Assembly: GCF_028618695.1 (NCBI RefSeq)
Contig: NZ_JAQIVI010000413.1
Coordinates: forward strand, 11,443-75,442
Reading direction: 5' to 3'
Length of the DNA: 64,000 bases
Source: Natrinema soli
GTDB taxonomy: Archaea; Halobacteriota; Halobacteria; Halobacteriales; Natrialbaceae
The position numbers were made by a program, and so were the translations under genes. A model generated the notes under the pieces. The model was not told the DNA's origin, did not search any database, and was given only the letters and a program-made list of their open reading frames with translations. Every line of letters starts with the position of its first letter. Positions within the stretch are counted from its first letter, which is position 1. Below are positions 48,405 to 52,039 of the stretch, one piece after another.

Positions 48405-48759
48405 CGGGGGCTGCCAGTATCGGAGACCGCTGTCGGGATTCGCGGCCTTCAGCGGAGCGGCTCCCCTCTCGGTGAACCGCTCTCCAGGATTCTCCCTTCC
48501 AGTGACTGACAGCCGCCGATATCCCCTCCAAACGAGTGGTCTACCGTTTCCCGTACCGGCCCCGGAGTGATAAACGAACGATCCTCGGAGCGGACGCTGG
48601 ACGAAGTCAGTACGACTGCAACGAGAGGAGTCACTGAACGTCATTGCACACCTGATCGAACGACGGAAGCGCGGTTCGGGGCGATGCGCGGTTCGGAGCG
48701 AACACAGTAGGCGAGAACCGTGGACTATGCGATCAGTATGTGAATCGTTTCAGTGGCTG

Positions 48760-48850
48760 CGATAGCTCCGTGCTACTGGACCGGGTCGGTCGTCGAAGGG
48801 ATGGAAAGAGGGGTGGGGGTACGCCGGCAGGGGCGCCGCGTAGTGCGGCG
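48760..48850 (+). repeat. Duplicated segment, homologous to 34670-34745
   Basis: GCTACTGGACCGGG ... GTACGCCGGCAGGGG matches 34683-34740. It ends with a hairpin, CGCCGC/GCGGCG at about 48835-48851, absent in the left copy. Confidence 0.5.
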
Positions 48851-48888
48851 ACCCGCCGTGCTTCTGTCTTACGGGGTACCGAGGATAG

Positions 48889-49115
48889 AACTGTCTCCAA
48901 AGTGGATTGGTGTCTCGAGAAACGCCGGCCGAAGGCCAGCGTTTGAGCCCCCATCCCCCGCAGGTGATCTGCCGATCAGGGGGATGGATCCGAGACCGAG
49001 GTGACAATGCGGCAAGTGACATCACGTCGGAACGTGCTTCGATCTCGGAAGGCCAGGGATCGTCTGTCTCGAGTCGGACGGATCATGTAGGTAGACTGAT
49101 TCTATTCTCCGCTAT
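48889..49115 (+). ncRNA. Duplicated structured element, copy 2 (candidate non-coding RNA)
   Basis: Pairs: AACGCCGGCC (48921-48930) with GGCCAGCGTT (48934-48943, one mismatch); CCATCCCCC (48951-48959) with GGGGGATGG (48979-48987), a perfect 9-bp stem; TCCGAGA (48989-48995) with TCTCGGA (49043-49049). The second stem differs in sequence and length from copy 1 yet pairs in both, which favours a conserved RNA structure over chance. Strand is assumed. Confidence 0.5.
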
Positions 49116-49180
49116 TTCTATCTCGTAACCGTAGAGTTACCAATCTATTGGATTTATCACACTAAATCGAACATCTACTG

Positions 49181-50042
49181 AAAATAACGGCTCTGTTGAA
49201 ATGATTAGAACATGATGTGTTTGGCACCCTCTGCGATAAGTACAGCTAATACAGGTAACGGAACCGGCATTTATTCCCCTGATAGTTGTCAGGAAGAGTG
49301 TGCTGAATCTAGAAGTTACATTCAGCAAGATTACGGCGGGTTCAGAATAAAAACCCGGATACCGATTTATACTAAGTCAACGTATCTATCGTATGGCACG
49401 GAATCGTTCTCAGCCAGATGAATCGAGAGTGATTACTAGACCTGGTATCAAAATGTCACTGCTCGCCACCAGTGACGATACCGACGGTGCGTGGAGTCTA
49501 ATCGAAAACGAGGCCAATCCCGGCCAAGGTCCCGCACCCCACTGGCACAAGGAGATGATTGAGGGATTCTACATTCTAGAGGGGAAGGTCGATTTCGAAA
49601 TCGATGACGAAGACCGGCGGGCGGGGCCAGACGAATTCGTCTTAGTGCCACCTCGGAGGGTCCACACGTTCACCGTAGTTTCGGACGAACCGGCGAGGTA
49701 TCTGATCTTGGTCTCGCCTGGTGGACTCGAGGAATACTTCAAGGAAATACAGGAGTTGAGAGCCGGAGTAGATGAGTGGCCCCCATCTGATATGGCCCCC
49801 GTTATTGAGGTGATGGAACGCTACGATACCTACCTTCCACCTGTTGAGTAATACGTGCTAACCGCCAAGCCTGCATTTTAATGTCTCAGTTGGTCACCGG
49901 GTTACGCTATGCATTCAGCACGGTTCTACAAATATATTCGATATCTGATATATGGGCTAGCGTTAGGTTCGCACATGTAGTGAGCATGCGTTTCACACTA
50001 AAATACATATGAAGAATAGGATTTCAACAGAGCCAAAATAAC
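49181..50042. mobile_element. 846-bp non-autonomous transposon carrying a cupin gene
   Basis: The element spans 49189-50034. Its ends are perfect 14-bp inverted repeats: GGCTCTGTTGAAAT at 49189-49202 and ATTTCAACAGAGCC at 50021-50034. It is flanked by identical 8-bp direct repeats AAAATAAC at 49181-49188 and 50035-50042. An 8-bp duplication is characteristic of IS6-family transposition, and the termini resemble haloarchaeal IS6-type ends as I recall them. No transposase is inside; the only gene is the cupin at 49393-49851. The element must be moved by a transposase elsewhere. Confidence 0.85.
49393..49851 (+). CDS. Cupin-domain protein, passenger of a mobile element
   Basis: 152 residues, single cupin barrel. 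Motif 1, PHWHKEMIEGFYILEGKVDF, has two His and a Glu as metal ligands; motif 2, PRRVHTFTVVSD, provides the last His. Enzymatic role (isomerase, dioxygenase or sensor) cannot be told. A TATA box (tttatacta, 49366-49374) about 23 bases upstream supports ATG 49393. Codon use (att, cta, gag-gga) is more AT-rich than neighbouring genes, and the gene lies inside a transposon-like unit, so recent acquisition is likely. Confidence 0.88.
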   Translation: MARNRSQPDESRVITRPGIKMSLLATSDDTDGAWSLIENEANPGQGPAPHWHKEMIEGFYILEGKVDFEIDDEDRRAGPDEFVLVPPRRVHTFTVVSDEPARYLILVSPGGLEEYFKEIQELRAGVDEWPPSDMAPVIEVMERYDTYLPPVE

Positions 50043-50320
50043 CAAACGGAACAGAACACGTCCGATTTTCTCTTACCTCCCGCTGAAGGGATGCTCCATA
50101 CCCTCTCCTCCTTCGTTTTCGGAGGGAGACGCGATCCGCGGACAGCGCGAGCGACCCGAGAGATCGCTCGCTCGCATCGACACCCACCGGAACGAACTCG
50201 AGCGACGGGAGCAGGGTCTCCCTGGAGCGGACTGCTTGATACGAAACTTATTTTGGTTACTAACCGGCAATCATGTACCCGATATTGGTTATTTATTGGG
50301 GCGCTCTCCGAGAAAGGAGT
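50043..50320. other. Intergenic, nothing recognised
   Basis: 278 bases between the mobile element and the DUF2061 gene. It holds an imperfect inverted repeat of gagcg/cgctc blocks (50145-50180) but no convincing gene. Confidence 0.4.
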
Positions 50321-50560
50321 ATGGGACGGAACGTGGTTTCCCGGTCCGCTATTCAGGCCCAGAAACGGGCTATCGTCAAGACGCTCTGCTATCGGCTGTT
50401 CATGATGCTGATCACGATACTCGTCGCGTGGTTGATCGTTGATGACGTGAGCGCCGCGATAAATATTGGAATTCTAACTAATATACTGAAGACGGGCACG
50501 TACTACGTCTATGAGCGGACATGGGACCACATTACGTGGGGAGTACTGCCCGACTCGTGA
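50321..50560 (+). CDS. DUF2061 small membrane protein
   Basis: 79 residues. AIVKTLCYRLFMMLITILVA and YVYERTWDHITWG are the signature of DUF2061, a two-helix membrane protein family (some homologues are fused to APS kinase). ATG 50321 (MGRNVVSRSAIQAQKRA) gives the usual length. Function unknown. It is isolated in a gene-poor, decayed region. Confidence 0.85.
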   Translation: MGRNVVSRSAIQAQKRAIVKTLCYRLFMMLITILVAWLIVDDVSAAINIGILTNILKTGTYYVYERTWDHITWGVLPDS

Positions 50561-52039
50561 TCTCCGTCGGGTCCTCGTTCTTCCCGGCCGCTCGGCGTCT
50601 GGGCCGACGAGAGTACTCGATCCGTTCGCAGATCCACTCGAATCGATCGGCGGTACTAATGAGCGGGACTGCAGATCCATCGGAGACCAGTCACACGGTC
50701 TCGAGGCGGACGATGGACTATAGTAGCCACTGAAAGTCAATCCACGCCTGATCGCATGACAGCGTTTCGATCAGGTGAACAGTGGATTTCAGTAACAACT
50801 ATAGTTCGTGCGGCGTCGCTTCGCGCGTCACAGCGTAGGATCGCCGGCGGAGACGGGAGTCGGCAGAGCGATGGTGAGTCGAAGCGTGACCGGTTGGAAG
50901 CCGAAACCGATCCCGCGACGGATATCCGCGAGCGTTTCGACGGCGGCAGCCACGCGCCCGACGTGCGCGAACTGATCGGCCACGAGCACATGCTGCCGTC
51001 GTCGACGAACCCGTCGATACCCTACACCGAGATTATCAACACGTTCGACAAACTGGACGAGCGAACGTTTCGACGATACGCTCGAGAATGCTCGTATCCG
51101 GATCGATATATGGTATTCTCACCGGTGATTCGTCTGAATTTACTTCTGAATGCCATCAAAACTCGATTCCCCTCCAAACTATATCTGGCAAAGACCAAAT
51201 TTTCGGTTGAGGTTCGTTGGATTCCGATGTGTATACGTTGTTTCGACTCACACCTCCGTTTCCGATCATCAATTACGTGTCTCATCATCTATTTCATATT
51301 ATAGTAGTGTATAAAACCCGCAATTCTTTTACTACTGCTCACTCGACTGCTCATCCACGAACTCTGAAAGCTGGTAATGCCCCTTTCGAGAGTAGGAGGC
51401 GCGTTGTAATTCAGTTTCGCTCGGTATATTTGAGCGAACCGTTCTCCACTAATTGAGCGAGGAAAATCAAAAGACCGTAACCCTCGACGAGAACCAGATG
51501 TCAGAGAGATCGTTGCTCTCGGTCAATCGATGCAGAAATACGGCAGTAGGATGAGGCCCTCGTCGTCCGAAGATTGCGGCATCAGGAATCAGCATCGACC
51601 CGGTATGTATTGTAGTATATTCTCAATATAGACGCCGGTCAAATAATGGAAATTATTCATCATTTATTCCTCTAACTATATGATTTCCTCATAATTGTAT
51701 CTTGTTGGATATAGAAATACTAAAATAAAAGTATAAAATTTACATAAATGAGAGGTCTAGGGCTAACTAGCCGATTCATACGGTGTGAGCCGGTAACCGT
51801 TCCAGTTTTGACCCTCCAGATGACCGCGCCGGGTCGCAGAGTTCGTCAACGGAGACGGGCTGGACCCCGTCACCCGTTTCGACATCATCGGTGTCCATAC
51901 TCGAGACGTAGCGATGGTCGACAGCGTCGGTGTCGGCGCTCACGTCACTGAGACACTCGAATTCGGATTCTACGAGGAGATCCACCCCCCTCGCGCTGTT
52001 CGAACTAGGGACGAATCCAGTGTTCTCGTTTACGGCGAC
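50561..52039. other. Gene-poor AT-rich stretch
   Basis: No recognisable intact gene. An open frame at 50756-51304 reads ELIGHEHMLPSSTNPSIPYT then KLDERTFRRYARE but matches no family I know and ends in AT-rich sequence; it may be a relic. Bases 51600-51760 are the most AT-rich part of the window. A frame on the minus strand at 51780-52035 (RYVSSMDTDDVETGDGV) continues from the FabG remnant and is also unrecognised. Confidence 0.4.

Follow-up and report, generated by a model that had tools for sequence, protein, structure and literature searches.

The window, the whole 64-kb stretch of Natrinema soli DNA that we analysed, contains a transposon-like unit at positions 49189-50034 (846 bp between the target copies). 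We regard this unit, with a probability of about 0.87 and on the strength of sequence comparison, as a non-autonomous cassette that carries the ends of an IS5-family insertion sequence (the ISHla2/ISHxa2 lineage) and is moved in trans by an IS5 transposase. On this reading, the place of the transposase between IS5-type ends would be taken by a cupin gene that brings its own start region, a transposase made elsewhere in the cell would recognise those ends and move the unit, and the cupin would be a working gene useful to the host or to the element. We favour it because the ends, the duplication and the cargo are all seen directly, and because autonomous relatives have the same repeat and the same 8-bp duplication.

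Table 1. Layout of the 846-bp unit and its target copies in the window (P and R are our own labels for end types).
Feature	Position	Strand	Remark
Target duplication, left copy AAAATAAC	49181..49188	.	direct repeat, 100%
Terminal inverted repeat, left, GGCTCTGTTGAAAT	49189..49202	+	14 of 14
Left element end, P type, 57 bp	49189..49245	+	common to units with other genes
Internal inverted repeat TGCTGAATCTA/TACATTCAGCA	49300..49327	.	within the unit
Cargo block	49356..49919	+	83% identical DNA on a Haladaptatus caseinilyticus plasmid
TATA-like box TTTATA	49366..49371	+	about 24 nt upstream of the ATG; function inferred
Cupin gene, 152 aa, Cupin_2	49393..49851	+	ORF and domain match
Right element end, R type, 68 bp	49967..50034	-	sequence comparison with other units
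Terminal inverted repeat, right	50021..50034	-	perfect reverse complement of GGCTCTGTTGAAAT
Target duplication, right copy AAAATAAC	50035..50042	.	identical to left copy

The preliminary description of this locus had reported 14-bp repeats, an 8-bp duplication and 846 bp with one complete cupin gene and no transposase, and we confirmed each of these in the sequence. The terminal repeats are perfect (14/14 bp), the target copies are identical (8/8), and the cupin is the only complete ORF. A tblastn search with an IS5 transposase as the only query (E ≤ 1) gave no match anywhere in the 64-kb window. The 14-mer occurs at up to three mismatches in two places in the window, both of them exact and both ends of the unit; taken alone, this count is no more than chance would give. 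The gene had also been called promoter-equipped: the TATA-like box is present ahead of the ATG, and from it we infer promoter activity. The arms of the internal inverted repeat resemble a hairpin, GTGCTGAAT/TTCAGCAC, found near the ends of several other units, and a search of Rfam with positions 48500-50700 gave no match up to E 1.

The end sequence recurs widely among haloarchaea. Of 125 genomes from the Natrinema (N. zhouii) family, 97 contained the 15-mer GGCTCTGTTGAAATC and none the same sequence read backwards; in the class as a whole, a 17-mer of the end was present in 258 of 391 genomes and its control in none. Among end pairs with at most one mismatch at each end and less than 4.6 kb apart, 54 of 87 were flanked by a duplication of at least 7/8, and none of the 174 shifted controls was; the 33 pairs without such a duplication include some wrong pairings and some rearranged copies. 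Since the two oligomers are frequent, their controls are zero and the duplications are absent from the shifted controls, the ends are not a product of chance. Compared with the corresponding end of 12 other copies, the window's left end shows 75-91% identity, and its right end is 90-94% identical in L081, L082 and L172 and less so in others (L and G numbers are our handles for loci and genomes). When plasmids were searched by blastn with the unit, the matches comprised one cupin homologue and units alike only in their ends. On Natrinema plasmids, the same ends enclose a different cupin (L081, 7/8 duplication), a response regulator (L082, 6/8), an uncharacterised ORF (L083, 8/8) and a HalOD1 protein (L084, 8/8), so that the predicted units with shared ends but differing passengers do exist.

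We then surveyed 140 regions around part of the listed matches, pooled with loci fetched earlier and mostly from Natrialbaceae. A unit was accepted when its ends had at most five mismatches in total, at most four at one end and at most two at the better end, with a duplication of at least 7/8. This sample, which was seeded by the window's end sequence, cut at 4.6 kb and is not a census, yielded 68 distinct units (124-4353 bp), of which the window's is one; the duplication is 8/8 in 54 and 7/8 in 14, and L082, at 6/8, lies outside the 68. An IS5 transposase was matched, in whole or in part, in 32 units and not in the other 36. An ORF of at least 60 aa is present in 32 of these 36, and none in L206, L267, L269 and L270, which are MITE-like, 124-125 bp long, with related ends and duplications of 7/8 or 8/8. 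Also among the 36 are L160, with an IS110 transposase inside, and L274, with an inner end inside.

The cargo of these units is diverse. In a scan of 21 units without an IS5 transposase other than the window's (L082 included), 12 had Pfam matches above the cut-off and nine had none. The families were Cupin_2, Response_reg, HalOD1, alpha/beta hydrolase (twice), Amphi-Trp, PAS/histidine kinase, SCO1 with YtkA, HNH repeat, DUF7344 with HTH, PQQ_2 and HNH. Transposase-bearing units can carry passengers as well, as in L155, L165, L201 and L263, where both lie in one unit. Such passengers include DUF6498, MFS, DUF2270, RDD, PALP and BAT/HTH_10 with DUF7344, and no family was found for those of L155, L157, L166 and L199. 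Cargo stretches are shared between transposase-bearing and transposase-less units in the pairs L201/L259 (82%), L181/L242 (86%) and L149/L275 (74%). Together, the cassettes and the ISs with passengers form a large haloarchaeal family, to which the window's unit belongs.

This family also includes a full IS with these ends, whose transposase is of the IS5 type. In complete elements, all five copies tested matched the IS5-family model NCBIfam NF033579 at 214.7-220.8 bits (cut-off 140), and plasmid annotation names the lineage ISHla2 / ISHxa2, "IS5-like". In 29 of the 32 units, the start of the transposase lies 51-52 bp inside one end; the exceptions are L151 (a remnant), L211 (541 bp) and L226 (a nested composite, 989 bp). 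Near full-length, stop-free transposase frames at 78-86% identity were found in five of six relatives (G001, G073, G076, G079 and G052, not G075), and G073 is syntenic with the window. The end next to the transposase, which we call T type, differs from the window's P-type left end inside the shared repeat; the argument for recognition by the same transposase is therefore drawn from the 14-17 bp that the ends share and from the length of the duplication.

The preliminary description had a single-gene cassette moved in trans by an IS6-type transposase. The transposase-less passenger unit stands and its movement in trans remains the probable course, but the ends belong to an IS5 lineage, and we consider it very improbable that an IS6-family element supplies the transposase. 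The idea draws on the GG tip, the CTGTT and AAA motifs and the 8-bp duplication, which resemble the description of IS6 in the accessible part of PMC7986276, and on IS6 transposases (190-192 bits, cut-off 125) lying 330-4325 bp from the end in two rearranged alleles, L322 and L323. With two IS6 queries (tblastn, E ≤ 1e-3), however, an IS6-type transposase was found in only one of the 68 units, as against 32 with an IS5 match, and the five transposases of these elements tested by HMM were all IS5. That one unit, L222, has an IS6-type ORF (35-38% over 191 aa) but also carries an IS5 transposase at the usual 52 bp. An IS6 gene lay under a two-piece match in one of 40 listed plasmid records. The length of the duplication cannot discriminate between the families because both can yield 8 bp. 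Among IS5 elements, those of the ISH1 group make 8-bp duplications. In L222 (601-2589), the presence of both transposases may represent a nested element or a passenger.

The unit could also be a deletion derivative, that is, an IS5 element that once carried both the transposase and the cupin and has since lost the transposase. In its favour, 29 of the 32 transposase-bearing units hold another ORF (60 aa or longer) beside the transposase, though not every one is a convincing gene. The window, however, holds no detectable transposase remnant, and its left end is of the P type, while the transposase adjoins a T-type end in 29 of 32 units. We consider this origin improbable, though less so than an IS6 helper.

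The cargo itself is a putatively functional gene. The 152-aa protein contains a Cupin_2 domain (E 1.6e-16; 60.2 bits, cut-off 27.2), and its nearest solved structures are quercetin 2,3-dioxygenases (E 5.7e-14). The closest named homologue is from Haladaptatus (80% aa), and dN/dS against it, by a simple count, is 0.32, a value in keeping with a putatively working protein. We looked for a pair of element ends around the cargo homologue on the Haladaptatus caseinilyticus plasmid and found none. We found the cupin unit nowhere else, no close cupin relatives appeared in a scan of the genome contigs, and at E ≤ 1e-20 the cupin was matched in 0 of 391 genomes of the class, a set without a positive control. 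Of the 20 protein matches, the window's own included, 18 lay on contigs no longer than 8.1 kb that gave no context.

Signs of mobility of units with these ends are seen at other loci. The HalOD1 unit occurs in L084 and L134, in two genomes, at 88.8% identity over 438 bp and in different targets, AGTGCAGT and ACTATTTC. For L171 there is a clean empty site: the joined flanks match a 486-bp stretch of G052 at 92%, with a single TCTCGATT. The same flanks match an uninterrupted stretch of G094 at 81% with the target changed, and in G058 and G038 the alignment spans the site with gaps that delete part of the target. Relatives of the flanks of the unit in L278 are uninterrupted in L287 and L217. A third empty-site candidate, L175/L180, was rejected at about 75% identity with the target not preserved. 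In G056, the 1471-bp copies L162:601-2071 and L163:601-2071 are inverted and have exchanged targets, TATCGAAT/GGTTATAA and their complements, which is the mark of an inversion of about 404 kb by recombination between the copies.

For the window's own insertion, an empty site with one AAAATAAC, to which the preliminary description had looked for support, was not found in 80 lonB loci, the other fetched loci or 125 genomes. The syntenic relatives G073 and G076 match the window up to 48583 and resume at 50061 or 50156, so that both are without the whole block 48584-50060, which is the unit plus about 600 bp on its left. This missing block fits an insertion; because the target itself is missing there, the insertion cannot be dated from these two genomes, and the earlier view that it is recent draws only on the intact repeats. 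The insertion point is a repeat-rich intergenic stretch, and short stretches at 48619-48724, 48918-49110, 50718-50808 and 50942-51053 recur in many of the 125 genomes. The window's lonB is 92% identical to the copy on N. zhouii plasmid unnamed2 (L003) and 89% to the chromosomal copy, and DNA of the neighbouring luciferase-like gene also adjoins lonB on that plasmid.

At one plasmid site, TCTCGATT, in replicons of Natrinema zhouii and Natrinema sp. SYSU A 869, the same ends and target enclose unrelated cargo. The complete alleles are L171 (3501 bp, PAS histidine kinase), L082 (688 bp, response regulator) and L213 (1398 bp, DUF7344 + HTH). Their flanks are 90-96% identical, and their cargoes have only stray matches of up to 23 bp in common. 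Five further alleles have a single recognisable end: L331/L087, with a second response regulator; L183, with a PIN domain and another IS5-family transposase; L322; L323; and L324 (G053), where ORFs with ArsR-type HTH_5, SBF and LMWPc domains lie directly inside the end, a set that we would read as arsenic-operon-like. Matched flank places in G076, G053, G094 and G100 cover only part of the TCTCGATT flanks. All eight alleles with an element end abutting the TCTCGATT flank have the same orientation, for which the chance in eight independent insertions is 2 x (1/2)^8 = 0.008. Because the target copies differ in two of the three complete alleles (L082 at 2 of 8 positions, L213 at 1 of 8), we suppose an old shared insertion followed by a change of cargo. 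End identity at this site is 0.906 and 0.917, against 0.856 and 0.853 across sites. Cargo at TCTCGATT may have been exchanged between resident ends.

The same could be proposed for the window: homologous recombination with another cassette would have brought the cupin in between ends that were in place beforehand, and these ends would have last transposed without the cupin. Unrelated cargo within one pair of ends, the single orientation, the apparent age of the insertion and the somewhat greater likeness of the ends all speak for such exchange, but they come from the TCTCGATT site and not from the window's. In the window, the two target copies match exactly, as a single plain insertion would leave them, and the right end is 0.90-0.95 identical to the TCTCGATT-site ends, as close as those are to one another. 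An orientation-biased hot spot, or differing deletions of one larger cassette, would moreover look similar. We judge in-place exchange at the window to be unlikely on balance, though by no means negligible. A more general picture, which we offer tentatively and at less than even odds, is that IS5 end pairs serve as a platform: the ends would stay put, genes or small operons would be swapped by way of the 57-68 bp ends, and an IS5 transposase would occasionally move the loaded cassette, the cupin unit being one state of this system.

We also examined the subterminal regions of the ends. Perfect stems of at least 6 bp were present in 14 of 45 P-type ends, against a shuffle mean of 1.3 and maximum of 5 (300 rounds), in 0 of 30 T ends and in 5 of 53 R ends (shuffle mean 1.8, maximum 7); the shuffles are approximate and the end types were set by simple patterns. 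The arms in P-type ends vary yet stay complementary (CGGTAA/TTACCG, GTGCTGAATA/TATTCAGCAC and AATCGGTACGT/ACGTACCGATT), and a terminator or protein-binding hairpin is possible. The idea of structured ends was set aside, given the approximate shuffles, the pattern-assigned end types and the window's left end, which has no stem there. Internal end-like sites at up to two mismatches numbered eight, compared with a control mean of 0.56 and maximum of 3 (300 rounds); L226 and L274, among these eight cases, are plainly nested elements. At up to three mismatches there were 15, within the control range (mean 7, maximum 16). In L201, L181, L211, L242 and L278, end-like relics lie inside passenger units, for example between transposase and passenger. 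These relics look as if neighbouring elements had fused, the inner ends having decayed and the outer ends having taken over.

The layout is that of mobile insertion cassettes (MICs), such as MIC231A1/IS231A in Bacillus cereus and mic-qnrD, in which IS-type repeats and a target duplication bracket a passenger that replaces the transposase and the helper acts in trans (accessible text of PMC3913671). The window's unit has the bracketing repeats, the duplication, a passenger without a transposase and an IS with the same ends. What differs is the archaeal host and the IS5-family ends, together with the 8-bp duplication, the 36 units without an IS5 transposase, the many cargo types and the same-site cargo variants. 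Cargo modularity itself is not new, since a 2004 title in the reference list of PMC3913671 already calls IS231-MIC231 elements modular. With ISHla2 and ISHxa2 the unit shares the terminal repeat and the duplication length; those encode a transposase and the unit does not, making it a derivative that uses IS5 ends rather than an IS5 element. The ISHxa2 unit (L300, identical with L201) is flanked on either side by CACCGTCT and holds two additional genes; in L299, the copy annotated as ISHla2 has its two ends but no duplication.

Transporter ISs also combine IS-type ends with passenger genes (excerpts of PMC3129680 and PMC7986276) but retain the transposase; several relatives fit this type, and the window's unit does not. 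Nor is it a member of the IS6 family, as among the 68 units an IS6-type match lies between these ends in L222 alone, which also has the IS5 transposase, or a short, non-coding MITE, being 846 bp long with a 152-aa gene. The haloarchaeal ISH2-type MITE HqIRS32 is likewise a non-autonomous archaeal element with a non-transposase ORF, but is about 520 bp long with one kind of ORF, whereas here the ends are constant and the genes vary; among five MITE families in Haloquadratum, the ISH2-type alone has a likely protein-coding ORF (PMC3119063, in the part available). The accessible parts of other sources class MICs and transporter ISs as IS derivatives (the ISsaga paper, PMC3129680), mention one passenger-carrying member and two MITEs (the IS6 review, PMC7986276) and name one passenger gene in a Halorubrum lacusprofundi transposon (PMC10544981). 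A search of titles and abstract openings, with subscription papers mostly outside it, found no published description of archaeal IS5 cassettes with varied cargo.

These findings turn one odd locus into an example of a widespread vehicle, with its end sequence in 258 of the 391 genomes of the class. Short one-gene cassettes with their own start region are a plausible route of gene exchange that annotation based on transposases misses. Haloarchaea are known for heavy gene exchange. The ends provide a simple motif for locating cassette genes in haloarchaeal genomes, and cargo exchange can be tested directly on the same-site alleles that one strain's plasmids carry. If the platform described above is real, it would amount to an archaeal analogue, built from transposons, of integron gene cassettes.
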